DNA from: Pseudoflavonifractor sp. 524-17
GTDB taxonomy: Bacteria; Bacillota; Clostridia; Oscillospirales; Oscillospiraceae
Direction: 5' to 3'
Assembly: GCF_009935845.1 (NCBI RefSeq)
Contig: NZ_QWEK01000031.1
Coordinates: forward strand, 1-48,369
DNA: 48,369 nucleotides
Shown: positions 5,757-20,160 of the stretch, piece after piece
Position numbering within the stretch: the stretch's first letter is position 1
How the letters are laid out: every line of letters begins with the position of its first letter
Position numbers and translations under genes: made by a program
The notes under the pieces: generated by a model
Seen by the model: only the letters and a program-made list of their open reading frames with translations
Told to the model about the DNA's origin: nothing
The model's database searches: none

Positions 5757-7835
<2,079 letters not shown>

Positions 7836-8371: not shown

Positions 8372-9733
8372 TTACATGCTCCGGTCGGCCTGGAGGCGCT
8401 GCTGGACTGGGCCGTACACCCGCTCCGGCCGCCCGCGGGTGGTCATGCGGCGGGTGGAGACCACTTTTACCATACCCACTTTTTCCAGGGCGCTGAGAAA
8501 ATGGTTGGCGCTGCGGTGGGTGACGGAGAGCTTTACCGCCAGCTCCCGGGCGGTAATCTGGCCGTCTGGCATACGCTTGATGGCGGTGAGCACCTTCATT
8601 ACCGTCAGGGAAGACAGGCCGCACTGTGTAAAATCCCCCGCCAGCTCTTTGGGGGTGGTGGGGACCACCAGCATGGCGTCCTGGCCCAGGGGGCCGATCA
8701 GCTCCTGCTTCTCGTTGATGAGGTAGCTGCCGCCTAAAATTTCGCTCTCCCGGGCGGCGTGGACAGCGTTGAGCTTGGCGTCGTATAAAGTGGCGCCGAT
8801 GCCGTAGCCGATGTGGATATGGATCCCCAGGCGCTGGAAGAGATAGTCCTGAATCATGCAGTTTTTATAGTTATTGGTACACCAGGCCACCGCCCGGCGG
8901 TCGGTGAGCACCCGAACCCCGAAGTGGGAGCGGCGGAATTCCACCCCCAGGGCTGAGTCGGAGAAAAACTGCGTCAAGGCGTTTTGCAGCAGCAGGCACT
9001 GGGCGTCCACCCAGTCGGGGTTGAGGGGGGCCTCCTGCTGGGCCAGGGCGGGGGAGAAGTTGAAGTGGATCTCCGCAGGCTGGTTCTCCTGAAGGGCGCG
9101 GATTTCAATCTCCCGAAAAAGCCCCGCGCAGGCGTCCGCAATGGTGGACAGGCTGGGGTGAGGGTAGTACACGCACATTCCCTCCCGCCGCAGCAGGGGG
9201 ATAAGCCCGCTGTAGCGGGTGATGACGGCGTCAAATTTCTGGGTCCGCCAGATGGACAGCAGCTTTTGATAGTGCAGATCCTCTGTGTACTGAAAGGTCT
9301 CCGGACTGCCCCCGTCTCCCGCCCGGCCCATGGAGTCGGACAGCGTCATCCCCGAATCCGTGGTGAGAAAGTCCTCCACGCTCATGTGGATCTGGTCCAG
9401 AAAGTCGCAGTAGATGCGGGAAAAATCCGCCACGCCCTTTTCCAGGTGGAGGTGCCACAGCAGGCGGTAGAGGGCCGCGTCATCGTAATTCACCGGCACC
9501 ACCGGACGCCGGCCCTTCCCCTCCAGAGACACCAGCGCCGTGGTGAAGCGCCGGCCGATGGTGAGAATGCCGTCTATGCTGGCAGGAACCTGATGGTAGG
9601 TCTTCTCCATTCCCTGGAGGGGGTCGTAATTGTAGAAGCTGGCCTCGCAGTCAAGCGCCAGCCGGTGGAACGCCTCCTCAAAATAGGGGCGGATATACTC
9701 TGTAATGATAACCGCGATTTTATATTGTTTCAA
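8372..9733 (-). CDS. transcriptional regulator: PrpR_N-like sensor, cyclase-like domain, C-terminal winged helix
   Basis: Likely ligand-responsive regulator of the divergent BMP/UbiD operon. The N-terminal 200 residues (QYKIAVIITEYIRPYFEEAF onward) resemble the PrpR_N sensor fold. A middle part (about 300-370) with SHFGVRVLTDRRAVAWC and IHIGYGIGATLYDAKLNAVH resembles degenerate GGDEF/GTP-cyclohydrolase-III-like domains and lacks a catalytic GGDEF. The last 75 residues (LTVMKVLTAIKRM...ITARELAVKLSVTHRSANHF...RRMTTRGRPERVYGP) form a winged helix with a basic wing. For the start, GGGAGG (9750-9745) is only two bases from GTG 9742, so I prefer TTG 9733 (spacing 11); this stays uncertain. The domain reading is by eye; the DNA-binding end is the surest part. 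Confidence 0.7.
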   Translation of the reverse strand: MKQYKIAVIITEYIRPYFEEAFHRLALDCEASFYNYDPLQGMEKTYHQVPASIDGILTIGRRFTTALVSLEGKGRRPVVPVNYDDAALYRLLWHLHLEKGVADFSRIYCDFLDQIHMSVEDFLTTDSGMTLSDSMGRAGDGGSPETFQYTEDLHYQKLLSIWRTQKFDAVITRYSGLIPLLRREGMCVYYPHPSLSTIADACAGLFREIEIRALQENQPAEIHFNFSPALAQQEAPLNPDWVDAQCLLLQNALTQFFSDSALGVEFRRSHFGVRVLTDRRAVAWCTNNYKNCMIQDYLFQRLGIHIHIGYGIGATLYDAKLNAVHAARESEILGGSYLINEKQELIGPLGQDAMLVVPTTPKELAGDFTQCGLSSLTVMKVLTAIKRMPDGQITARELAVKLSVTHRSANHFLSALEKVGMVKVVSTRRMTTRGRPERVYGPVQQRLQADRSM

Positions 9734-9770
9734 AGGGCACACATCCTCCCAAAATGTCCGTGTTTCCTCT

Positions 9771-9909: not shown

Positions 9910-9948
9910 GATGTGCTATTTAATTAAATATTGACATTGATGTGCCAT
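9910..9948 (+). promoter_or_regulatory. direct repeat GATGTGCYAT flanking the operon's -35 element; candidate operator
   Basis: GATGTGCTAT at 9910-9919 and GATGTGCCAT at 9939-9948 differ in one base and are 29 bases apart (about three helical turns). The first lies upstream of the -35 hexamer, the second between -35 and -10. A regulator bound there could activate or repress. The palindrome ATTTAATTAAAT lies between the copies. The rest of the 9743-10027 gap is AT-rich with nothing else that I can name. Confidence 0.4.
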
Positions 9949-9958
9949 GGATTATAAT
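9931..9958 (+). promoter_or_regulatory. strong sigma-A promoter of the BMP/UbiD operon
   Basis: A perfect TTGACA (9931-9936), 16-base spacer and perfect TATAAT (9953-9958). The expected start is near 9965, giving a leader of about 60 bases before the first gene at 10028. Confidence 0.8.
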
Positions 9959-10027: not shown

Positions 10028-10339
10028 ATGGATCAGACAAAAGTGCGGTATAACAACCCGAAAAGGGCCCGGATTGTGGTGGAGAAGTGCCCGGTGGATC
10101 ACACCGGCCGGCCCTGCCACTGCCACACCGAGGGCCAGGTTTTTGAATTTGACTTTGAGCGCTGCCCCAGCAATTTCTGCGCCGCGGCGTTCCACAATCT
10201 GTGGCCCCAGCTCCGAGTGCTTGAGCTGGGGGGGCGGCATCCCTGGGATGGGGAACCCAACGTGACCCGGGTGGCTTGTCCGGACCCGGATAAGCCCACC
10301 ATTTTCCGCATTGAGGTATGGGAAGCGCCTGAGAAATAG
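10028..10339 (+). CDS. TIGR04076-family small protein
   Basis: First gene of the catabolic operon; 103 residues, soluble. It matches the pattern I know for TIGR04076: a Cys-rich G-x-C-x-C-x-x-EGQ-x-F segment (GRPCHCHTEGQVFEF), then FC (SNFCAAAFHNLWP), a GG pair followed by W (LGGRHPWDG), and finally a Cys and FRIE near the end. The function of this family is unknown. Its conserved cysteines suggest metal or redox binding, and members are scattered among anaerobic Firmicutes and archaea. Start ATG 10028 lies behind AAGGGGCGG; the frame is open further upstream but lies before or around the transcription start. Its place at the head of the operon suggests a role with the transported compound. 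Confidence 0.75.
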   Translation: MDQTKVRYNNPKRARIVVEKCPVDHTGRPCHCHTEGQVFEFDFERCPSNFCAAAFHNLWPQLRVLELGGRHPWDGEPNVTRVACPDPDKPTIFRIEVWEAPEK

Positions 10340-10446
10340 GGCCTGGACCGTGAGATCGCAGAGAGGGGGGATGGGCCGGAATTGGCCAAACTGTTTGGAA
10401 AAGACCAAAAAGGGCAGATATGATTGATTGACAGGAGGATATGACA

Positions 10447-11499
10447 ATGAAGATCAGAAAACAGCTTGCACAGATTCTCTCCGGCGCGCTCTTGGTGACC
10501 ATGCTGGCCGCCTGCGGCGGCGGTGGCGGCGGAAGCAATCCCTCCGCGGCCCCCAATCCCTCCGACGGCGGCGGCGAGGGCGGCTACAAGGTGGCCATGC
10601 TGCTCACCGGCTATATCAACGACGCCGGCTGGAACCAGTCCGCCTATGAGGGCCTTCAGATGGCCCAGGAGGAGTTCGGCGTCACCGGGGCCTATACCGA
10701 GGCCATTCCCCAGCCCGACTTTGAGGCGGTCATGCGGGACTATGCCGACCAGGGCTATGACATGGTCATCTGTGTGGGCAATGAGTTCTCTGACGCGGCC
10801 CTGGCCGTGGCCCCCTCCTTTCCCAATGTGAGCTTTGCGGTGATGAACGGCAACAACGCCGCCGAGCCCAACGTGGGCGCCTACCGGTTTAACACCCCCG
10901 AGGCCGGCTTTACGGCGGGCGCCATCGCCGCCATGTACTCTCAGGGCGGCACCGTGGGCGTCATCGGCGGATCCACCGCCCCCCACATCAAGGACGCGGC
11001 GGAGGCCTTCAAGGTGGGTGCTCAGTACATCAATCCTGACATCAACGTGCTGATTGGCTATACCGAGACCATGACCGACGTGGCCAAGGGCAAGGAAATG
11101 GGCGTGGCGTTTATTGAGCAGGGCGCCGACGTGCTCAGCGCCAACGCCAACTCCGCCTCCCTCGGCGTCATCGACGCCGCCAAGGAAAAGGGCATCCTCC
11201 ACATCGGCTACATCAGCGACCAGTACGACGTGGCCCCGGAGACCGTGATGGTGTCCATGATTCAGAGCAACCCCTTTATGATCCGCGCCATTGTGGAGTC
11301 TGGGGTGAACGGCACCTTTGAGCCCAAGCTGAACCTGTTCGGCATGAAGGAGGGTGCCCTCTACCTTAGTGACTTCCACGGCAACGACTCCAAGCTGACC
11401 GACGAGCAGAAGGCGAAGATTGACGAGATCGTGGCCGCTATCAAGGACGGCTCCTTGAAAGAGGCCGGCATCCTGCCCAAGTCCTCCTTTGAGCAGTAA
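10447..11499 (+). CDS. BMP-family ABC transporter substrate-binding lipoprotein
   Basis: Extracellular binding protein for an ABC importer. The 350-residue precursor has a basic N-terminus, a hydrophobic stretch and the lipobox LAAC with lipidated Cys23, then a Gly/Ser/Pro linker. The mature part follows the BMP (Med/PnrA) pattern: KVAMLLTGYINDAGWNQSAYEG (split here: KVAMLLTGYI, NDAGWNQSAY), DMVICVGNEFSDAA, TAGAIAAMYSQGGTVGVIGG and GADVLSANANSASLGVIDAAKEKG. Known members bind purine nucleosides or, in Treponema RfuA, riboflavin. I prefer ATG 10447, eight bases from AGGAGG (10433-10438), to ATG 10441, only two bases away. A weak internal promoter is possible (TTGGAA 10395, 18 bases, TATGAT 10419). 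Confidence 0.93.
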   Translation: MKIRKQLAQILSGALLVTMLAACGGGGGGSNPSAAPNPSDGGGEGGYKVAMLLTGYINDAGWNQSAYEGLQMAQEEFGVTGAYTEAIPQPDFEAVMRDYADQGYDMVICVGNEFSDAALAVAPSFPNVSFAVMNGNNAAEPNVGAYRFNTPEAGFTAGAIAAMYSQGGTVGVIGGSTAPHIKDAAEAFKVGAQYINPDINVLIGYTETMTDVAKGKEMGVAFIEQGADVLSANANSASLGVIDAAKEKGILHIGYISDQYDVAPETVMVSMIQSNPFMIRAIVESGVNGTFEPKLNLFGMKEGALYLSDFHGNDSKLTDEQKAKIDEIVAAIKDGSLKEAGILPKSSFEQ

Positions 11500-11516
11500 T
11501 CTGATTGCAAATAACC

Positions 11517-11544
11517 AGGGCCGGGGGCGGCGGCCCCCGGCCCT
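11517..11544 (+). terminator. GC-only intercistronic hairpin after the binding-protein gene
   Basis: A perfect 12-bp stem (AGGGCCGGGGGC with GCCCCCGGCCCT, 4-base loop) followed by ATTAAAAA instead of a U-run. Such stems commonly stabilise the upstream message or reduce read-through, so that the binding protein is made in excess over the membrane parts. Confidence 0.65.
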
Positions 11545-11584
11545 ATTAAAAACAGGTTTTTAAATGCGGAAGGGAGAAAACGCT

Positions 11585-13117
11585 ATGGGAGAAAAGGTAT
11601 TGGAGATGAGGAACGTCACCAAGCGCTTTGGCAGGCTCATCGCCAATGACAAGGTCAATTTTGACCTGGAAAAGGGCGAGGTCCACGCCCTTCTGGGGGA
11701 GAACGGCGCGGGAAAGACCACTTTGATGAACTGCCTGTACGGCATCTACAGCCCGGAGGAGGGGGAGATTCTGCTTCGGGGCCAGCCCCTGGCCCTCAAC
11801 GGGCCCAAGGACGCCATCGCCCACAATATCGGCATGGTCCACCAGCACTTTATGCTGGTGCCGCCCCTGACGGTGCTGCAAAATATTGTGCTGGGGCAGG
11901 AGTGCAGGCTCTCCCCCATGAAGCTGGACCGGGCCCGGCGGGAGGTGGAGGAGCTGTGCCGGCTGTACGGCTTCCAGCTGGATCTGGACACCAAGGTGGC
12001 GGACCTGTCCGTGGGCGCCCAGCAGCGGGTGGAGCTGGTCAAGGCCCTCTACCGGGGGGCGGATATCCTGATTCTGGACGAGCCCACCGCGGTGCTCACC
12101 CCCACAGAGGTGGAGGGGCTCTTTGAAATCCTGCGGCAGTTTGTCTCCCAGGGGAAGTCCATCATTATTATTTCCCACAAGCTGTGGGAGGTGAAGCAGA
12201 TCTCCAACCGGGTCACGGTTCTGCGCAGCGGCGCGGCGGTGTCCACCGTCTTCACCGCCGACGTGGAGGAGTCCGACCTGGCCGACATGATGGTGGGCAA
12301 AAAAGTATCCCTCCAGTACGAAAAGACGCCGGTGAAGTCTCAGGAGGCCATCTTTGAGATGCGCAATGTAAACGTAACCGGCAGCCAGCGGGCCTCGTCC
12401 CTGAAGGATCTGTCGCTGCATATCTGCAAGGGAGAGATATTGGGCATTGCCGGCGTGGACGGCAACGGCCAGCTGGAGCTGTCCGAGGCGGTGATGGGCC
12501 TGGCGGAGATCCAGTCGGGACAGGTCTTCTTCGACGGGGAGGAGATCACCCGCGTGCCCACCCGCCGGCGCATTGAGCGGGGCTTCGCCCACATCCCCGA
12601 GGAGCGGATGACCCAGGGGCTGGTGATGAACTTCAGCGCCAGTGAGAATATGATTCTCAACTGCTACGACCGGCCGCCCTTTACCAAAAACCATATCTTT
12701 GACAACCGCGCCGTCAGGGAGAACGGCAAAAAGCTGGTGGAGGAATACGATGTCCGCCCCCGCAGTCCGGAGGCGGCGGCCCGGTCCTTTTCCGGCGGCA
12801 ACCAGCAGAAGGTGATCATCGCCAGAGAGTTTTCCCAAGATCCCAAGCTGGTGGTGGCGGTCCAGCCCACCCGGGGCCTGGACATCGGCGCCAGCGAGTT
12901 CGTCCACCACAAGCTGCTGGAGCGCAAGGAGCAGGGGGCCGGCGTGCTCCTCATCTCCGCCGACCTGGACGAGGTTCTGGCGGTGTCCGACCGGGTGTTG
13001 GTCATCAATGAGGGAGAAATTATGGGGGAATTTATCCCCGGCACCATCAGCTACGGCGATATTGGTCTGATGATGGGCGGAACCAGACAAGGGAAAAAGG
13101 AAGGTGATCCTGCGTGA
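11585..13117 (+). CDS. ABC transporter ATP-binding protein, two-domain nucleoside/sugar (CUT2-like) type
   Basis: Energises the BMP-dependent importer. The 510 residues carry two ABC domains. The first is complete: Walker A GENGAGKTT (about 37-45), signature LSVGAQQRVELV and Walker B ILILDEPTAVL. The second has the usual degenerate Walker A (GVDGNGQLELSEAV), a good signature FSGGNQQKVIIAREF and a Walker B region VAVQPTRGLDIGA with Gln where the catalytic Glu/Asp is expected, typical of this NupO/YufO-like group. I chose ATG 11585, nine bases after GGGAG, over ATG 11564, which would precede the ribosome site. The stop overlaps the start of the first permease (GTGA). Confidence 0.94.
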   Translation: MGEKVLEMRNVTKRFGRLIANDKVNFDLEKGEVHALLGENGAGKTTLMNCLYGIYSPEEGEILLRGQPLALNGPKDAIAHNIGMVHQHFMLVPPLTVLQNIVLGQECRLSPMKLDRARREVEELCRLYGFQLDLDTKVADLSVGAQQRVELVKALYRGADILILDEPTAVLTPTEVEGLFEILRQFVSQGKSIIIISHKLWEVKQISNRVTVLRSGAAVSTVFTADVEESDLADMMVGKKVSLQYEKTPVKSQEAIFEMRNVNVTGSQRASSLKDLSLHICKGEILGIAGVDGNGQLELSEAVMGLAEIQSGQVFFDGEEITRVPTRRRIERGFAHIPEERMTQGLVMNFSASENMILNCYDRPPFTKNHIFDNRAVRENGKKLVEEYDVRPRSPEAAARSFSGGNQQKVIIAREFSQDPKLVVAVQPTRGLDIGASEFVHHKLLERKEQGAGVLLISADLDEVLAVSDRVLVINEGEIMGEFIPGTISYGDIGLMMGGTRQGKKEGDPA

Positions 13118-14229
13118 GTTTTTCGTTTGGAAGGCATGAGGTGCGTGTGGAGCGCAGAAAACCGTCGGAAAGCCCCTTGTTCCAGCAGCTTCTGGGCCTG
13201 GGCCTGGCATTGCTGCTGGTGATTGTGGTGACTTCGGTGCTCATTGCCCTGTCAGGCAAGTCCCCCCTGGCCGCGTTCCAGGCCATGATCAAGGGGGCCT
13301 TTGGCACCAAGAACAGCACCGCGGAGACCATGATTAAAACCGTACCCCTGCTGCTGGCGGCCCTGGGCCTGACCATCTGCTACCGTACCGGCCTGACCTC
13401 ACTGGGCTCAGAGGGGCAGATTGTCATCGGCGGCCTGATGGCCACCATCGTGGGCATTTATATGGGGGGCCTGCCCAAGCCCATTCTGGTGCCCCTGGCC
13501 ATGATTGCCGGCATGATCGGCGGCGGGCTGTGGGCCTCCATCGCCGGCTTCCTCAAGGCAAAGCTGGGGGTGAGCGAGATCATCAACACCATTATGCTCA
13601 ACTACGTGGCCACCTATTTTGTATCCTACCTGATCTCCTCCGGCCCCCTTCAGGAGGAGAGCGGCTTCTATCCCCAGTCCGATTTGCTGTCTCAGAATGC
13701 CTGGCTGAGCAGCATCCTCCCCGGCACCCGGATGCACACAGGGGTGATTGTGGCGGCGGTGTCCGTGGTGGCGGTCTATCTGCTGCTGTGGAAGCTGCCC
13801 TTGGGCTATCAGATGCGGGCCGTGGGCAACAACCCCATCGCCGCGCGCACCAACGGCATCAAGGTGGCCCGGAACATGGTGCTGGCCATGGTGCTCTCCG
13901 GGGTATTCGCCGGCCTGGCCGGCGCCATTGAGCTCATGGGCATCCACCACCGGCTGATGAACGGCTTCAGCTCCAGCTATGGCTTTGACGCCATGGCCGT
14001 GGCCCTGCTGGGGGGGCTGCACCCTGCGGGCGTCACCGTGGCGGCCCTGTTCTTCGGCGCGCTGCGCACCGGGGCCAACACCATGCAGCGCACCCTCCAG
14101 GTGCCGGTGTCTCTGGTCAACGTCATCCAGGGCCTGGTCATTCTCTTCGTGTTGATGCAGGCGGTGCTGCGCAGCTTCACAATCAAGCTCTTTACCAGCA
14201 AAAAGGGCGCGGCGGCAAAGGAGGCTTAG
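13114..14229 (+). CDS. BMP-type ABC transporter permease 1 (YufP/NupP-like)
   Basis: Membrane subunit of the importer; 371 residues with eight to ten hydrophobic helices. The family EAA-like loop is visible as GYQMRAVGNNPIAARTNGIKV (GYQMRAVGNN, PIAARTNGIK), and SEIINTIMLNYVATYFVSYL fits the conserved mid-protein helix. It is longer than permease 2, mainly because of an N-terminal extension and the extracellular loop around residues 175-205, as in YufP. Start GTG 13114 overlaps the ATPase stop by four bases, giving translational coupling. Confidence 0.92.
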   Translation: MSFSFGRHEVRVERRKPSESPLFQQLLGLGLALLLVIVVTSVLIALSGKSPLAAFQAMIKGAFGTKNSTAETMIKTVPLLLAALGLTICYRTGLTSLGSEGQIVIGGLMATIVGIYMGGLPKPILVPLAMIAGMIGGGLWASIAGFLKAKLGVSEIINTIMLNYVATYFVSYLISSGPLQEESGFYPQSDLLSQNAWLSSILPGTRMHTGVIVAAVSVVAVYLLLWKLPLGYQMRAVGNNPIAARTNGIKVARNMVLAMVLSGVFAGLAGAIELMGIHHRLMNGFSSSYGFDAMAVALLGGLHPAGVTVAALFFGALRTGANTMQRTLQVPVSLVNVIQGLVILFVLMQAVLRSFTIKLFTSKKGAAAKEA

Positions 14230-14235
14230 TCAGTT

Positions 14236-15153
14236 ATGGATATTTTAAGCGGATTTTTGGAGGCCATGGTGCGTATGGCCTGCCCCATCATGCTGGCCAG
14301 CCTGGGGGCCCTCTTTACCGCCCGCAGCGGAATTATCAATTTTGCCATGGAGGGCATTATGATTATGGGGGCTTTCTTTGGGGTATATGGCTCCCACATG
14401 ACGGGGAACCCGTGGATTGGCGCTGTGTTTGGAATGCTGGCCGGTCTGGCGGCGTCCATGGTGCTGGGCGTGATGAGCATCTCGGTAAAAGTGGACCAGG
14501 TGGTGGCGGGCACCGGCATCAACGTGCTCTTTCTGGGCCTGACCAGCTACCTCTTCACCGTGATGTACCCCAACGGCCAGCCCTCCTCCGTCAATACCTT
14601 TCCCACCCTGCCAATCCCTGTGCTCAGCGGCATTCCCGTCGTTGGCATCCTGTTCCGGCAGAGCCTGCTGACCTATCTGGCCTTTTTGCTGGTGCCGGTG
14701 ATCTGGTACCTGCTCAACCGGACTACCTTCGGCCTGTGCCTGCGGGCGGTGGGGGAGCAGCCCCACGCCGCGGACAGCCTGGGCATCCACGTGGACAAGA
14801 TGCGCTATGTGGCCATCATCCTGGCCGGCCTGCTGGGCGGGCTGGGGGGCGCGGCCCTGTCTTTGGGCCAGGTGTCGGTCTTCATTGAGAACATGACCTC
14901 CGGCCGGGGGTATGTGGCCTGGTCCGCCGTGACGGTGGGCAAGTGGAACCCCTTCGGCATTATGGGCGCCTCTCTGCTCTTCGGCGGGGCGGAGGCGGTG
15001 CAGCTGCGCCTGCAGGCCATGGGCATCTCTCTGCCCCACCAGTTCTTCCAGATGCTGCCCTACGTGCTGACCATGGTGGTACTGGCCGGCGTGGTGGGCC
15101 GTACGGTGGGACCCAAGGCCATGGGCAAGCCCTTTATCAAAGGGGAGCGGTAA
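14236..15153 (+). CDS. BMP-type ABC transporter permease 2 (YufQ/NupQ-like)
   Basis: Second membrane subunit, 305 residues, eight or more helices. The opening ASLGALFTARSGIINFAMEG is the hallmark of this permease class, and FGLCLRAVGEQPHAADSLGI matches the EAA-like cytoplasmic loop that docks the ATPase. It starts at ATG 14236, six bases after the permease 1 stop. With the lipoprotein, ATPase and permease 1 it makes a complete importer of the nucleoside/riboflavin (NupABC, RfuABCD) class. Confidence 0.92.
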   Translation: MDILSGFLEAMVRMACPIMLASLGALFTARSGIINFAMEGIMIMGAFFGVYGSHMTGNPWIGAVFGMLAGLAASMVLGVMSISVKVDQVVAGTGINVLFLGLTSYLFTVMYPNGQPSSVNTFPTLPIPVLSGIPVVGILFRQSLLTYLAFLLVPVIWYLLNRTTFGLCLRAVGEQPHAADSLGIHVDKMRYVAIILAGLLGGLGGAALSLGQVSVFIENMTSGRGYVAWSAVTVGKWNPFGIMGASLLFGGAEAVQLRLQAMGISLPHQFFQMLPYVLTMVVLAGVVGRTVGPKAMGKPFIKGER

Positions 15154-15154
15154 A

Positions 15155-16072
15155 ATGGCCTTTTCTGTGGAAGAGATGGGTTTTCCCGTCCATTACCCCA
15201 ATCCAGAGCTGCTCTCCGCCCTGACGGCGGACAGCCCCATGGAGACGCCGGAAAAGGTAAAGGCGGTGCTGGGGGAGCTGAAATTCCCGCCCGCCCCGGC
15301 GGATCGGCCCTATCTCTACGGGTGTATGGTGCTCTCTTTTGACGGGAAGATGGGCTTCCCCGACAACCCGGAGGGCACCCTCATCTCCAAGGAGAACCGG
15401 CGGGACCCCATAGGGGGGAAGACGGACTTTTGGATCATGAACGTGTGCCGGGCCTATGCCGACGGGGTAATTCTGGGCACCGGCACCCTGAAGGCCCGTC
15501 CCAGCCGGGCCTGGCGGGCGGATCTGGCGGATCCGGACCTCATCGCCGCCCGGCGGGGGCTGGGAAAACAGGACGCCGCCCCCCTGAACCTCATCGTGTC
15601 CATTGACGGGCGGGATGTGCCTTTGGAGCATCCTACATTGAAATTGCCGGAGCGGCCGGTGATTCTTACCTCCCAGGTGGGGGGCGCGTGGCTGCGGGAG
15701 CATTTGGACCAGCCGGTGCGCCTGATTGACAGCCCCTGTGATTTGAGAGAGGACCAAAGCGTGCTGCGGGTGCTCACCGCCGGGGAGGAAGTTGCGGATA
15801 CCGCCGGGCTGCTGTCTCTGCTGCGCCGGAGCGGCCTGTCCCATGTGTCGGTGGAGGCCCCGGGGTATATCTGGCAGCTCATCCGGGAGGAACTGCTGGA
15901 CGAGTACCTGCTCAACTACTCCGGCGTAATGGCCGGCGGCAATACCGCCCTGGGTACCTGGGCGGGACAGACCGCGGAGCGCCACCCACACGCCCTTCTG
16001 CTCAGCGTAGGGTGGCACAGGGGCTTCCTCTACACCCGGCAGAAGCTGATTTACGGAGATTCACAGGCTTGA
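15155..16072 (+). CDS. RibD C-terminal (dihydrofolate-reductase-like) domain protein
   Basis: Predicted NAD(P)H-dependent reductase with the RibD_C fold, 305 residues. Family features are YLYGCMVLSFDGKMGF (about 50-65), the nucleotide-side segment AYADGVILGTGTLKARPS (about 106-123) and the late VEAPGYIWQLIREELLDEY. There is no deaminase domain and no zinc motif, so it is not complete RibD. The first 45 residues are an extension not usual for the domain. It starts two bases after the permease stop, so it belongs to the transporter operon. In this setting it may reduce a ring or imine of the imported compound; the substrate is unknown. Confidence 0.8.
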   Translation: MAFSVEEMGFPVHYPNPELLSALTADSPMETPEKVKAVLGELKFPPAPADRPYLYGCMVLSFDGKMGFPDNPEGTLISKENRRDPIGGKTDFWIMNVCRAYADGVILGTGTLKARPSRAWRADLADPDLIAARRGLGKQDAAPLNLIVSIDGRDVPLEHPTLKLPERPVILTSQVGGAWLREHLDQPVRLIDSPCDLREDQSVLRVLTAGEEVADTAGLLSLLRRSGLSHVSVEAPGYIWQLIREELLDEYLLNYSGVMAGGNTALGTWAGQTAERHPHALLLSVGWHRGFLYTRQKLIYGDSQA

Positions 16073-16082
16073 ACACCATAAA

Positions 16083-16096
16083 CCGCCCGCGGGCGG
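16083..16096 (+). repeat. perfect 14-base GC palindrome between operon genes
   Basis: CCGCCCGCGGGCGG in the 45-base gap between the RibD-like and flavoprotein genes. It could form a short hairpin in the message or be a protein site; no U-run follows. Confidence 0.35.
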
Positions 16097-16117
16097 AACG
16101 GAAAGGAAACCCAACTC

Positions 16118-16753
16118 ATGATTAAAATTGTTGGATTGAGCGGCAGTCCCCGGAAGGGCGCGACGGAGTACGTATTGGAGCAGGCCCTGGCCGCCGCCCG
16201 GACGTTCTCTCCGGAGGTGGAGACCGAGCTGGTGACGGTCCGGGGCAAAAAGATTGCCCCCTGCAATGGCTGCGGCTATTGTAAGCGGGAGAAGACCTGG
16301 TGCTGCATTCCAGACGATATGCAGCCCCTCTTTGAAACGCTGATTGAGGCGGACGGCATTCTGGTGGCCTCCCCGGTGTATGTGATGTCCGCCACGCCCC
16401 AGATCCACGCGGTGTGCTCCCGGATGCGCCCGGCCATGCACTGCTACCCCGGAATGCTGCGCAACAAATTCATGGCCGCGATTGGCGTGGGCGGCACCCG
16501 CAACGGGGGTCAGGAGCAGACCGTCACCGACCTCATCAACCTCTTCGGCACCCGGGCCATCAACATTGTCACCAACGAATCCGGCGGCTACACCGGCGGC
16601 AAGGTCTGGTCCCAGGACCGGGGGGCGGAGGGCGCCGCCGAGGACGAGATCGGCATGAAGACCGCCACCGATCTGGCCAAAAAGCTGGCGGAGGTCTGCC
16701 TTATTTACAATAAGGGAAAAGAACTCTATAATAAGGAGCGGGAGAACGGATGA
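16118..16753 (+). CDS. iron-sulfur flavoprotein-like NAD(P)H/FMN oxidoreductase
   Basis: Predicted electron carrier or reductase of the flavodoxin-like fold, 211 residues. The FMN-phosphate loop is LSGSPRKGATEYVL (7-20). Cysteines C49, C52, C55 and C62/C63 (CNGCGYCKREKTWCC) match the compact C-x2-C-x2-C-x4-7-C cluster motif of archaeal and clostridial iron-sulfur flavoproteins, so a [4Fe-4S] centre is likely. SPVYVMSATPQ (about 87-97) is the second flavin loop. It may pass electrons to the RibD_C-like reductase. It starts at ATG 16118 after GGAAAGGAAA and overlaps the amidohydrolase start by four bases (ATGA). Confidence 0.85.
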   Translation: MIKIVGLSGSPRKGATEYVLEQALAAARTFSPEVETELVTVRGKKIAPCNGCGYCKREKTWCCIPDDMQPLFETLIEADGILVASPVYVMSATPQIHAVCSRMRPAMHCYPGMLRNKFMAAIGVGGTRNGGQEQTVTDLINLFGTRAINIVTNESGGYTGGKVWSQDRGAEGAAEDEIGMKTATDLAKKLAEVCLIYNKGKELYNKERENG

Positions 16754-18099
16754 GCCGGGGATGGATTCACGTCCATGTCCTCACCATGGACGGGGAAGAC
16801 CGGACCTACCCAGACGGGGGCATCCTCTACACAGAGGACGGGACCATCTCAGCCGTGGGGGAGAGCGGGGCCATCCGCGCCCAGGCGGAGGCGGAGGGGG
16901 CCCGGCTTCAGGACGGCGGCGGGAAAATCCTGCTGCCCGGCCTGGTCAATACCCACACCCACCTCTATCAGGAGCTGACCAAGGGCCGGGGGAGCGATCT
17001 GAGCCTGGAGGAGTGGTTCCCCAAAGCCATGGCCCCGGTGGGTGCGGCCCTGCGGCCCCGGCACATGGAGGCCGGGGTGGATCTGGGCATTCTGGAGGCC
17101 CTGCGCAGCGGCGTGACCACTGTGGCCGACTATATGCAGCACCAGCCGGTGCCCGGCCTGGGCATCGCGGAGCTGGAACGGGCGAAGGCCCTGGGCATAC
17201 GCATGGTGTACGGCCGGGGCTACCGGGACATCGGCCGGCCCGAGGTGGTAGAGAACGCCGAGTCCATCTTTGCCGACGTGGACGATCTCCGCGCCCGGTA
17301 CGAGACCGGGGACGGCATGATGACCCTCTGGCTGGCCCCCGCCGCCAGCTGGGGGCTCAGCGACAGCCTGATGCGCCAGACCCGGGCCTATGCCGGTAAA
17401 ACCGGCACTCCCATTATGATGCACCTGTTTGAGACCGGCAGCGATAACACAGGGAGCCAGGAGCGCTTTGGAACAGACGCCATCGACTGGTTTGAGGAGG
17501 CGGGCCTGCTGGGGCCGGATCTGCTGGCTGTCCACTCCGTGGCCCTGGGGGAGAAGGAACTGGACGCCTACCGGCGGCATGGGGTAAGGGTGTCCTATAA
17601 CCCGGTGTCCAACATGTACCTGGCCTCCGGGGTGGCGCCGGTGCGCAGGCTGCTGGATCTGGGCCTCACCGTGGGCCTGGGCACCGACGGTGCGGGGTCC
17701 AACAACAGCAACGACATGCTGGAGACCATGAAGGCCGGGGCCCTGCTGCAAAAGGCGTTTTCCCGGGACCCCCGGAGCCTCACCGCCCATGAGACCCTGC
17801 GCATGGCTACCATTGAGGGGGCGAAGGCCCTGGGGCTGGATAAACTGGTGGGCTCTCTGGAGGCGGGGAAGCGGGCGGATCTTGTCCTCTACGACCCCAT
17901 GGCCAGCGTAAAGACCTGCCCGGTGTGCGGCAGCGCCGAGGCCGCCCTGGTCTATACCGGGGATTGCCGGGGGGTGGATACCGTGGTGGTCAACGGGCGC
18001 GTCCTGCTGTCCGGGGGAAAGTTCACCCAAGCGGACGAGGAGGCCATTCTGGCCCGGGCCCGGGAGATGGCCCGGGATCTGGCGGATTGTCTGGAATGA
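16750..18099 (+). CDS. amidohydrolase, ATZ/TRZ-like (nucleobase/s-triazine-type deaminase or hydrolase)
   Basis: Metal-dependent hydrolase of the TIM-barrel amidohydrolase superfamily, 449 residues. Metal ligands are H69 and H71 (VNTHTHLYQ), H225 (MMHLFET, with Glu228), H262 (AVHSVAL) and D313 (GLGTDGAGSNNSND). This mononuclear pattern belongs to the branch of atrazine chlorohydrolase, SAH/MTA deaminase and 8-oxoguanine deaminase. The small N-terminal beta domain (first 60 residues) and the C-terminal segment GSLEAGKRADLVLYD are also typical. The exact substrate cannot be read. Linked to a nucleoside-type importer and a UbiD decarboxylase, it may remove an amino group from a heterocycle. Confidence 0.88.
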   Translation: MSRGWIHVHVLTMDGEDRTYPDGGILYTEDGTISAVGESGAIRAQAEAEGARLQDGGGKILLPGLVNTHTHLYQELTKGRGSDLSLEEWFPKAMAPVGAALRPRHMEAGVDLGILEALRSGVTTVADYMQHQPVPGLGIAELERAKALGIRMVYGRGYRDIGRPEVVENAESIFADVDDLRARYETGDGMMTLWLAPAASWGLSDSLMRQTRAYAGKTGTPIMMHLFETGSDNTGSQERFGTDAIDWFEEAGLLGPDLLAVHSVALGEKELDAYRRHGVRVSYNPVSNMYLASGVAPVRRLLDLGLTVGLGTDGAGSNNSNDMLETMKAGALLQKAFSRDPRSLTAHETLRMATIEGAKALGLDKLVGSLEAGKRADLVLYDPMASVKTCPVCGSAEAALVYTGDCRGVDTVVVNGRVLLSGGKFTQADEEAILARAREMARDLADCLE

Positions 18100-18138
18100 T
18101 TGAATGAGACGACTGGAACGAGAAAAGGAGACGTGGAC

Positions 18139-19470
18139 ATGAGCGAAATCCGGGATTTGCAAACCTTCCTCCAGGCGCTGGAGGAGCACAACCTGCTGTT
18201 TACCGCAAAGAAAGAGGTGGACTGGAACCACGAGATCGGTTCGGTCATCGCCACCCTGGAGCCCAGCGGCCGGGCGGGATATTTTCCCCAGGTCAAGGGC
18301 AAGGAGTTCGGCGTGTGCGGCAACCTGCTGGGGTCCATGGACGCCATCGCCGTGGCCCTGGGCTGCGCCAAGGAGGAGATCACCGATTTTCTGGCGGATA
18401 AGCTGGAGCACCCCATCAAGCCCAAAGCGGTGGAGAACGCCCCCTGTCAGGAGGTAGTGCTCACCGGGGATCAGATTGATATGGGCCGTCTGCCGGTGCC
18501 GGTCCACGCCCCCAAGGACGGCGGTCCCATCATCACCGGCGGCGTCATCGTCTCCAAGGAGCTGGACGGCACCCGGCAGAACCTCTCCTTCCAGCGGATG
18601 CACGTCAAGGGCAAAGATAAGATCAGCATTATGATCAACGAGTGGCGCCATCTGAAGGAGTTCTACGACGCCGCCGAGGCCCAGGGCAAGGCCCTGCCCA
18701 TCGCGGTGGCCATCGGGGCGGACCCGGTGGTCTACGTGGGCGCGGGCCTGCGGTACGACGGGGACGAGATGGAGGTGGCCGGCGCCGTCCGGGGCCGGCC
18801 TATGGAGGTGGTCAAGTGCGTCACCAACGACATCTATGTGCCCGCCGAGGCCCAGTTCATCATCGAGGGGGAGATCCTGCCCAACCAGCGGGAGCTGGAG
18901 GGCCCCCTGGGAGAGTTCACCGGCCACTACTCCGCCCCCTGGAACAGCCCCATTATCCACGTCACCGCCATTACCCACCGGAAGGGGGCCATTTACCAGA
19001 CTATTAACGGCGCCTCCTTTGAGCATATCAACCTGGGCAATGTGCTGCCCCGGGAACCTTTGCTGAAAAAATTCACCACCTACGTAAGCAAGGGGGTCAT
19101 CAACGTCCACATCCCTCCCTACGGCTCCGGCTTCCTGGCTCTGGTGCGGCTGCGCAAGAAGAACCCCGGAGAGCCCAAAAACGTGGCCCTGGCCGCAATG
19201 ATGACCTATGTGAACATCAAAAACGTCATTGTGGTGGATGAGGACGTGGATATCTACGACCCCGCCGACGTGATGTGGGCCCTGTCCAACCGGGTCATCC
19301 CGGAGAATGACATTTTCTACGTGCCCAACGCCCAGGGGCACGAGCTGGATCCCTGCTCCGACGAGCGGGGCGTGCAGACCAAGATGGGCATCGACGCCAC
19401 CCTCAGCGACGAGAGCCGCTGCCTGGAGCGGGTGCGCTATCCCCAGGTGAATCTGAAGGACTACCAGTAA
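18139..19470 (+). CDS. UbiD-family prenyl-FMN-dependent (de)carboxylase
   Basis: Catalyses reversible non-oxidative decarboxylation of an aromatic or unsaturated acid using prenylated FMN. The 443-residue protein has the two-domain UbiD layout. VPVHAPKDGGPIITGGVIVSK (split: VPVHAPKDGG, PIITGGVIVSK) lies near 119-139. FIIEGEILP and EGPLGEFTGHYS (about 240-263) hold the glutamates of the family E-R-E network, and RMHVKGKDK lies between. The C-terminal helix region is VDEDVDIYDPADVMWAL. I chose ATG 18139, eight bases after AAGGAG (18125-18130), over an in-frame ATG upstream. It is followed nine bases later by its own UbiX-type cofactor enzyme, which is strong evidence for function. The substrate is unknown. 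Confidence 0.92.
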   Translation: MSEIRDLQTFLQALEEHNLLFTAKKEVDWNHEIGSVIATLEPSGRAGYFPQVKGKEFGVCGNLLGSMDAIAVALGCAKEEITDFLADKLEHPIKPKAVENAPCQEVVLTGDQIDMGRLPVPVHAPKDGGPIITGGVIVSKELDGTRQNLSFQRMHVKGKDKISIMINEWRHLKEFYDAAEAQGKALPIAVAIGADPVVYVGAGLRYDGDEMEVAGAVRGRPMEVVKCVTNDIYVPAEAQFIIEGEILPNQRELEGPLGEFTGHYSAPWNSPIIHVTAITHRKGAIYQTINGASFEHINLGNVLPREPLLKKFTTYVSKGVINVHIPPYGSGFLALVRLRKKNPGEPKNVALAAMMTYVNIKNVIVVDEDVDIYDPADVMWALSNRVIPENDIFYVPNAQGHELDPCSDERGVQTKMGIDATLSDESRCLERVRYPQVNLKDYQ

Positions 19471-19479
19471 GAGGGCCGT

Positions 19480-20088
19480 ATGAAACAGTTTATTGTGGGC
19501 GTCACCGGGGCCAGCGGCACCCTGTACGCCGACCGGGTGCTCCGCCGGCTGCTGGACCTGGGGCACAGGGTCCACCTGTGCGTCACGGACGCGGGGGCCC
19601 TGGTGGCCCGGAGTGAGCTGGAGGGCTGGCCGGAGGGGGACGCCGCCGCCGTGGAGGCCGCCCTGCGGGTGCGCTACCGCTCCCAGGAGCTGTACTGGCA
19701 CAACGTCCATGCCATCTGGGCCAGCATCGCCAGCGGTTCCTTTCGGACAGACGGTATGGTGGTAGTACCCTGCTCTATGGGCACTATGTCGGCCATCGCC
19801 CACGGGGCGTCCCACAATCTGCTGGAGCGGGCCGCGGATGTGGTGCTGAAGGAGCGGCGCAGGCTGATTCTCGCGGTGCGGGAAACCCCTCTTAATACGA
19901 TTCACTTGCAAAATATGCTCACCCTCTCCCAGTGCGGAGCGGTGATTATGCCGGCGTGTCCCTCCTTTTATCAAAAGCCCGCCTCCCTGGAGGAGCTGGC
20001 CGACTTCTTTGCCGTACGCGTCCTGGACCAGCTGGGCCTGTACGACAGTGAGGCCCCCCGGTGGGAGGGCGAGCTGGAGACTTACTGA
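19480..20088 (+). CDS. ubiX: UbiX-family flavin prenyltransferase
   Basis: Makes prenyl-FMN for UbiD enzymes by joining dimethylallyl phosphate to FMN. The 202-residue protein has the flavin loop GVTGASGTLYADRVL (7-21). VVVPCSMGTMSAIAHGASHNL (split: VVVPCSMGTM, SAIAHGASHN) is followed by LAVRETPLNTIHLQNMLTLS, the phosphate- and FMN-binding segment, and by the family ending MPACPSFYQKP. It lies nine bases after the UbiD gene and presumably serves it. It is the last gene of the operon, with hairpins following at 20121-20160 and 20195-20221. Confidence 0.94.
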   Translation: MKQFIVGVTGASGTLYADRVLRRLLDLGHRVHLCVTDAGALVARSELEGWPEGDAAAVEAALRVRYRSQELYWHNVHAIWASIASGSFRTDGMVVVPCSMGTMSAIAHGASHNLLERAADVVLKERRRLILAVRETPLNTIHLQNMLTLSQCGAVIMPACPSFYQKPASLEELADFFAVRVLDQLGLYDSEAPRWEGELETY

Positions 20089-20120: not shown

Positions 20121-20160
20121 AAAGGGCGCGCTGCAGAATAAAAACTGCAGCGCGCCCTTT
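20121..20160. terminator. 16-bp perfect stem between convergent genes; bidirectional terminator
   Basis: AAAGGGCGCGCTGCAG pairs perfectly with CTGCAGCGCGCCCTTT (8-base A-rich loop). The + strand ends in only three T. On the minus strand the stem is followed by a T-rich tract (TTTTGTCTTCTTTG), so it may serve both the UbiX gene and the convergent SLH gene. Confidence 0.7.

Follow-up and report, generated by a model that had tools for sequence, protein, structure and literature searches.

The DNA under study is a 48,369-nucleotide stretch of contig NZ_QWEK01000031.1 of Pseudoflavonifractor sp. 524-17 (the window), and our subject is a set of ten intact, co-directional genes that occupies positions 10028-20088 of its + strand, as defined by the open reading frame (ORF) list and by Pfam and NCBIfam scans. 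The first gene (10028-10339) encodes a small protein of family TIGR04076 (59.5 bits against a cut-off of 33). It is followed by a complete BMP-type ABC importer set, namely a substrate-binding lipoprotein (10441-11499; Bmp domain PF02608, 193.1 bits, cut-off 24.1), an ATPase with two ABC_tran stretches (11564-13117) and two BPD_transp_2 permeases (13114-14229 and 14236-15153), the last three assigned by Pfam. Then come a RibD_C-fold reductase (RibDC, 15155-16072) whose PF01872 match is weak yet above the cut-off (28.3 versus 24.1), an FMN_red-family flavoprotein (FMNred, 16118-16753; PF03358, 79.7 bits, cut-off 24) in which a four-cysteine cluster motif was recognized by eye, and a cog0402-type amidohydrolase (16750-18099; PF01979, Amidohydro_1, 214.5 bits, cut-off 25). 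The final two genes encode a UbiD-type decarboxylase dependent on prenylated flavin mononucleotide (prenyl-FMN) with N-terminal, middle and C-terminal domains (18133-19470, or from a TTG codon at 18100) and a UbiX flavin prenyltransferase (19480-20088), both of which exceed their family cut-offs (TIGR00148, 347.9 versus 244.85, and TIGR00421, 206.8 versus 108.9). From the ORF coordinates the gaps between successive genes are 101, 64, -4, 6, 1, 45, -4, 0 and 9 bp, so that seven of the nine junctions fall in the range from -4 to 45 bp; with 18133 rather than 18100 as the start of UbiD, its junction with the amidohydrolase gene becomes 33 instead of 0 bp. An earlier sequence-only reading of this stretch had described ten co-directional genes with short or overlapping junctions that include a BMP-class importer, an amidohydrolase, UbiD and UbiX, and the ORFs, domain matches, key residues and family scores given here and below bear it out on each of these.

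A sigma-70 promoter-like site that matches the consensus at 12 of 12 positions (TTGACA-16-TATAAT) precedes the first gene at 9931-9958 on the + strand. Divergent from the operon, on the - strand at 8372-9742, is the ORF of a putative regulator with a weak C-terminal MarR_2 match (20.1 bits, under the cut-off of 27), and its homologues in three of the loci described below (60% in L011, 41% in L017 and 44% in L019) each adjoin the operon, on a side that varies. Downstream, a 16-pair hairpin between the operon and a convergent gene (20121-20160) is terminator-like on the - strand only, with no + strand T-run behind it. Promoter-like sites are more frequent between 8200 and 20600 than in shuffled sequence (11 versus 3.0 +/- 1.6), and terminator-like sites are no commoner than in the shuffles (11 versus 10.1). 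An 11/12 sigma-70 promoter-like site at 16704-16732, at the end of the FMNred gene and just before the amidohydrolase start, may speak against a strictly single transcript and leaves room for an internal start. An Rfam search at the gathering threshold found no ligand-reporting RNA next to the operons in the window and 22 other loci, the only matches there being in L056, which has a T-box, and in L118, where a purine riboswitch (L118:3487-3588, 75.5 bits) precedes a separate permease-like gene some 5 kb from that locus's run of mch genes (below).

Is the gene set a unit that is kept in other genomes? All ten genes are present in the same order in L011, and nine of them, importer to UbiX, in L017 and L019 (in L019 an upstream TIGR04076 frame is suspected by eye only, no search aimed at TIGR04076 having been made); the contig of L023 begins inside the RibDC gene and retains RibDC-FMNred-amidohydrolase-UbiD-UbiX. 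The order is thus conserved in five loci including the window. Conservation of the neighbourhood had been named beforehand as a point on which the sequence-only reading could fail, and the four further loci speak in its favour. The UbiD proteins of these four loci are 85-90% identical to that of the window, the importer ATPases of L011, L017 and L019 reach 78-86%, and the window's TIGR04076 protein is 82.5% identical to its L011 counterpart. L068, from another family, has a shorter version with a TIGR04076 gene (44.8 versus 33) before the importer, a UbiD at 46% and a RibDC at 48%. The unit is rare, since RibDC occurs in only four of 300 same-family and four of 295 same-order genomes, the window genome being counted in both. 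Elsewhere in the window genome, about 9 kb beyond a BMP importer, a run of an M20-like peptidase gene (named by eye), a TIGR04076 gene (65% to that of the window), FMNred and an amidohydrolase was observed (L171:13462-15961). Genes in the compared loci were called by codon scoring, and the neighbourhood counts use these calls for L017-L021; roles outside the ten genes rest on BLAST against a reference set together with the Pfam and NCBIfam checks cited, and several neighbours were named by eye.

The AlphaFold model of RibDC (mean pLDDT 92.6, pTM 0.91) finds as its best Foldseek match Methanosarcina mazei Rib7 (5xv5, E 7.2e-15) and next Rv2671 (4xt4 and 4xt6), the structures of which were solved with dihydro- and tetrahydropteridine rings and whose identity to RibDC is about 20%. 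RibDC has the same fold as the RibD/Rib7 reductases and Rv2671 but differs from them in sequence (18-22% identity), and its score is far below that of the riboflavin-pathway RibD/RED equivalog (TIGR01508, 35.1 versus 186.45), the likeness being one of fold alone. The amidohydrolase has the metal-binding and acidic residues H69, H71, H225, E228, H262 and D313, a pattern (HHHEHD) found in all 27 amidohydrolase rows longer than 380 amino acids in the gathered loci. Among the best 25 of 51 NCBIfam equivalogs it is below every cut-off, scoring 291.1 of 609 for N-ethylammeline chlorohydrolase, 270 of 532 for 8-oxoguanine deaminase and 165.5 of 444 for SsnA. In a tree of 50 rows, given without support values, most amidohydrolases of these loci fall in one clade; those of L064, L120, L122 and L123 are outside it and paralogues from other contexts are inside it, so the tree does not separate substrates.

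The closest Protein Data Bank (PDB) chain to UbiD is 6h6v (276.8 bits, full length), followed by protocatechuate decarboxylases and chains named UbiD. We take 6h6v to be HmfF, a furan dicarboxylate decarboxylase, from which the window protein, though similar over its full length, differs in operon and presumably in substrate. Residues R155, E256 and E261, presumably the catalytic Glu-Arg-Glu triad by analogy with Fdc1, are invariant in seven of seven UbiD rows. The UbiD/UbiX pair resembles the VdcBCD hydroxyarylic acid decarboxylase; the window proteins differ from it in scoring below the VdcC and VdcB cut-offs (319.7 versus 650 and 205.4 versus 290), and the NCBIfam scan reports no VdcD among the ten genes.

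The lipoprotein of the importer has Lbp (7x0r) and AtzT (6pi5) as PDB relatives, and Lbp, which we take to be guanosine-bound, has in the alignment Ala and Gly at the positions of two Asn residues that contact guanine in AtzT. AtzT binds guanine through contact residues that have been described (PMC6834077), and PnrA and BmpD are nucleoside binders of the same BMP/PnrA class (PMC7093131). The seven guanine contacts of AtzT map by alignment onto the window lipoprotein at a single offset, as follows: Tyr45 becomes Trp64, Ser97 Gly113, Phe98 Asn114, Glu165 His182 and Trp194 Met211, and Asn218 and Asn220 are kept as Asn235 and Asn237. The window protein thus has the Bmp domain and both Asn residues in common with AtzT and differs from it by His and Met at the Glu165 and Trp194 positions. 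A free base appears to fit this pocket better than a nucleoside, because the two Asn residues that contact free guanine in AtzT are kept. His182, Asn235 and Asn237 occur together in all five importers of UbiD-type operons (window, L011, L017, L019 and L068) and His182 in none of the 16 other importers aligned, the alignment covering the BMP proteins gathered first, less one cut copy (L068, under 280 amino acids); for this reason the pocket may be read as one for a planar free base that carries an additional acid group.

RibDC belongs to a family that recurs in Clostridia, and the company that it keeps in other genomes was examined with a profile built from 11 RibDC proteins, which matches 23 of 398 genomes of the phylum at 1e-10; 14 of these matches are strong (best E <1e-35), and the other nine (E 1e-15 to 1e-11) are treated as other RibD-type proteins. 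Within eight genes of 35 RibDC genes there is an amidohydrolase in 20 cases, a BMP lipoprotein in 15, FMNred in 14, an importer ATPase in 13, a short-chain dehydrogenase/reductase (SDR) in 11, UbiD in seven, E2 in seven, E1 in six and a molybdenum hydroxylase in six. These 35 genes comprise those gathered before L132-L136 were fetched and with flanking sequence (matches such as those in G829, G628 and G730:C17 have no flanks), and where related genomes (G700, G780) have nearly identical loci, each locus enters the count. Since loci were picked for RibDC or for Mch (methenyl-tetrahydromethanopterin cyclohydrolase), joint counts of these two lack independence; no other neighbour played a part in the selection. 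Amidohydrolase, RibDC and importer stand in one run in L056, L058, L060, L061 and L074. The 2.6-Mb genome G780, which contributes L057, L058, L112, L169 and L170, has 43 Bmp-family and 28 amidohydrolase-profile matches, which suggests that its owner is possibly a specialist on nitrogen-ring compounds.

Several related operons carry enzymes of pterin chemistry. In L018 and L020 the order is FeS-molybdenum hydroxylase of the xanthine dehydrogenase (XDH) type, SDR, Mch, E1 alpha, E1 beta, E2, amidohydrolase, RibDC, E3 and finally a protein of the TIGR03792 type, for which only the L020 copy was scored (48.3 versus 45.75). E1, E2 and E3 are components of a 2-oxoacid dehydrogenase. This gene set is apparently split over two contigs in the window genome (L106 and L016). 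Mch is best known from methanogens; the L020 copy exceeds the equivalog cut-off (313.3 versus 228.8) and matches four PDB Mch chains over its length at 247.4, 230.1, 215.2 and 213.9 bits. A second group links Mch to FolB (dihydroneopterin aldolase) and an importer: L118 and L120 have Mch-Mch'-FMNred-FolB-BMP-permeases-ATPase, with an amidohydrolase next in L118; L121 has FMNred-FolB-BMP-permeases-ATPase-amidohydrolase-Mch; L125, cut by the end of its contig stretch, has FMNred-FolB-BMP-permease with an amidohydrolase and two Mch genes in a neighbouring unit; and L131 and, in the window genome, L126 have FolB-BMP-FMNred-ATPase-permeases. In L057 FolB adjoins an amidohydrolase, and the same run includes RibDC, FMNred and an enzyme of the XDH type. 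The FolB proteins of L057 and L063 (the latter gene about 11 kb from RibDC) score 99 and 108.3 against a cut-off of 72.15, and the L057 FolB with two domains falls slightly short of it (68.4). FolB is present in 10 of the 12 genomes searched (the exceptions are G064 and G200), and four of them (G804, G679, G935 and G615) have two copies each, one of which is in an importer-linked set; two ordinary FolB loci taken as controls (L137, L138) have FolE/FolP-like neighbours, identified by eye, instead.

The genes were also counted by genome. Strong RibDC matches occur in 14 and Mch in 26 of the 398 phylum genomes, and both in 11 (Fisher p 3e-12). At least two FolB-domain matches are found in 11 of 21 Mch genomes versus two of 228 others (p 6e-12), and in seven of 10 RibDC genomes versus six of 239 others (p 2e-8). 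All three p values are uncorrected for relatedness, and several of the positives fall in the shared families f46, f65 and f108. The FolB counts refer to a 249-genome sample. Its list names all of the 21 and the 10 genomes but omits 40 that have no match, so genomes with RibDC or Mch whose handle is higher than G815 are taken as lying outside the sample. A two-domain FolB gene counts as two matches, so the window genome has one FolB gene. An ordinary tetrahydromethanopterin one-carbon pathway was considered as the reason for Mch; L115, L116, L117 and L119 resemble such clusters by eye, have no RibDC or BMP match and were set apart.

Other genes were seen beside these sets. In L110, L118, L120, L125 and L109 the Mch genes have a tandem Mch-like partner of divergent sequence (20-30% to that of L020), as if the pair were a two-subunit or two-step enzyme. 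Corrinoid proteins lie near RibDC-amidohydrolase-importer or Mch sets at L056:12115-12744 (scanned) and in the regions L060:7184-9898 and L118:4695-5417 (by eye), and L060 also has a methyltransferase of the methyltetrahydrofolate:corrinoid type (Pterin_bind, scanned), hinting at release of a methyl group from the substrate. A DhnA-type aldolase and an FGGY sugar kinase, often with alcohol dehydrogenases, accompany FolB, RibDC or Mch in L059, L075, L109, L130, L131 and L134 and might serve a polyol side chain. Beside importers at L061:3589-4182 and 6210-6818 (scanned) stand hydrolases of the polysaccharide-deacetylase and the isochorismatase (biuret/RutB-like) folds, with a copy of such a hydrolase at L122:8562-9152 (by eye), as might be expected for ring-opened ureido compounds. 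In the sister operons the SDR would, speculatively, oxidise the side chains of reduced pterins, E1/E2 would cleave them and FolB would act as an aldolase.

What does the window operon do? Tentatively, and with confidence that stays below an even balance, we read it as a substrate-specific unit that imports and breaks down a planar N-heteroaromatic carboxylate; the likeliest kind is a pteridine such as pterin-6-carboxylate or lumazine-6-carboxylate. The sequence-only reading had guessed at a flavin-, pterin- or purine-like substrate; that guess gains support and can be narrowed, in that the company of RibDC (importer and amidohydrolase, with Mch and FolB in some sister operons) favours a pteridine over riboflavin or a nucleoside, and the AtzT-like Asn residues a free base over a nucleoside. 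The fold match to pteridine-bound Rv2671 may be counted on the same side, and a purine-type carboxylate seems less likely than a pteridine-type one. For the window operon itself the pteridine identity rests on association.

In the proposed route the BMP lipoprotein would capture the free-base acid and the ABC importer take it up; UbiD, with prenyl-FMN supplied by the adjoining UbiX, would remove the carboxylate before the ring loses its aromatic character; RibDC would reduce a ring C=N bond with NAD(P)H, FMNred being a possible electron partner; and the amidohydrolase would hydrolyse the amidine or amide of the reduced product, by deamination or ring opening. UbiD enzymes act on aromatic or conjugated acids, and because their chemistry needs such an acid, decarboxylation most likely precedes ring reduction. 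The substrate, the order and direction of the steps, and the roles of FMNred and the TIGR04076 protein are all matters that we infer. Of the deamination, reduction and decarboxylation scheme suggested earlier, the conserved unit of catabolic type is supported, and the order is changed: decarboxylation probably comes first, and the action of the amidohydrolase may go beyond deamination to cleavage of the reduced ring, as that of SsnA does (PMC12507026).

The last two steps are modelled on the logic of the reductive uric-acid pathway of Escherichia coli and Clostridioides difficile, in which YgfK or UacX yielded product in combination with SsnA, and no enzyme did so on its own (PMC12507026). Amidohydrolase action would, as SsnA does for YgfK, pull an unfavourable reduction forward. 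Both systems have a reductase and a cog0402 amidohydrolase for an N-heteroaromatic ring, XDH-type molybdenum enzymes (here in sister operons) and an anaerobic gut setting (PMC12507026). They differ in that the window has RibDC in place of YgfK/UacX, has UbiD/UbiX and a BMP importer, and has an amidohydrolase that fails the SsnA equivalog; by Pfam and NCBIfam no YgfK, UacX, HyuA-, YgeX-, YgeY- or YgeW-type gene is among the ten. The operon looks like a genuine variant, conserved between genomes, of the reductive breakdown of N-heterocycles. A Variovorax system that degrades folate with pterin deaminase and carboxypeptidase G shares deaminase attack on a pteridine acid, but is from a soil bacterium, and its abstract names no UbiD, RibD_C protein or BMP importer (PMC9513972). 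Ring cleavage of the phloroglucinol type, where the anaerobic cyclohydrolase is a cyclase-family enzyme (PMC10470551), was considered and rejected, as no cyclase-family dihydrophloroglucinol cyclohydrolase, SDR reductase or TAL is among the ten genes. The sequence-only reading knew of no described pathway with this gene set, and the open-licence literature covered here likewise yielded no description of this operon or of anaerobic pterin or folate breakdown.

A number of observations weigh against a pteridine acid as the substrate. The window operon has neither Mch nor FolB, and no RNA family match in the loci searched reports the ligand. L068 has UbiD, RibDC and importer with no amidohydrolase in the operon, and seven of the 35 RibDC genes (L021, L063, L065, L066, L067, L069 and L070) have within eight genes none of the listed partners (amidohydrolase, BMP, FMNred, molybdenum hydroxylase, E1, UbiD or an NCS2-like permease). 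In the gathered loci only four of 35 Mch genes lie within eight genes of a RibDC gene, so Mch and RibDC share genomes more than operons. Six further non-canonical FolB loci divide into two in an importer operon (L126, L131), one that abuts an amidohydrolase (L128) and three with neither (L127, L129, L130), and L057, which has FolB, also has a purine-type PucR regulator. The second stacking residue of AtzT, Trp194, is Met in the window importer. The nearest PDB entries to the amidohydrolase are S-adenosylhomocysteine deaminase, atrazine chlorohydrolase and 8-oxoguanine deaminase, and 2paj, which we take to be an isoxanthopterin deaminase, is only eleventh.

The serious rival, unlikely as we judge it, is a purine or purine-derived imidazole. 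UbiD would then, for example, be the enzyme of the clostridial xanthinase route that decarboxylates 4-amino-5-imidazolecarboxylate, and the amidohydrolase an aminoimidazole deaminase or purine ring hydrolase. Hydrolysis and decarboxylation both occur in that route (PMC12507026), and in 2012 several genes for it could still not be assigned in Clostridium acidurici (PMC3519856); the importer pocket resembles that of a guanine binder, the amidohydrolase is cog0402-type like guanine and 8-oxoguanine deaminases, and the PucR gene of L057 points the same way. However, the described route needs no reductase after xanthine, whereas RibDC is present in all five UbiD-type operons and in L068; there is a single amidohydrolase and no formiminoglycine-type gene among the ten; and the FolB and Mch of the sister operons are not purine enzymes.

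Next, and in our view also improbable, is the reading in which the same import, decarboxylation, reduction and hydrolysis act on another N-heteroaromatic acid (a flavin fragment, 7-deazapurine, pyridine, triazine or xenobiotic relative). RibD_C is a flavin-pathway fold, the relatives of the amidohydrolase include triazine hydrolases, and the best PDB relative of UbiD is presumably the furan dicarboxylate enzyme. In L111 a riboflavin-type S component of an energy-coupling factor (ECF) transporter (PRK13661, 234.1 versus 99) is some 5 kb away from the run of Mch genes, and L113 has a look-alike, but the ECF genes are outside the Mch run, no flavin-specific gene is in the window operon and the FolB/Mch company is pterin-like; apart from the RibD_C fold and this S gene, little speaks for riboflavin. 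Stacked separate functions, in which the importer and UbiD/UbiX/RibDC would serve two different compounds (the latter e.g. in cofactor or secondary metabolism) and have no pathway in common, are very unlikely: the promoter-like site before the amidohydrolase gene, the lack of that gene in L068 and the seven RibDC genes without such neighbours are set against an order conserved in five loci, junctions mostly of -4 to 9 bp, and importer, amidohydrolase and RibDC together in other families (L056, L058, L060, L061, L074).

Beyond the pteridine reading of the window lies a wider idea, which we consider doubtful: that these loci form a family of anaerobic clostridial pteridine-degrading operons, with Mch as a ring- or one-carbon-releasing cyclohydrolase, a second FolB, RibDC, a cog0402 hydrolase and BMP importers of their own, the window being the pteridine-carboxylate branch in which UbiD decarboxylates a pterin or lumazine acid. 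We know of no pterin or lumazine acid among UbiD substrates. If this idea is true, it would put named genes to the oxygen-free breakdown of pterins, folates and related ring compounds in gut-type Clostridia; the principle of reductive dearomatisation plus hydrolysis would reach beyond urate, the substrates of UbiD would widen to fused nitrogen rings, and Mch would gain a further role.

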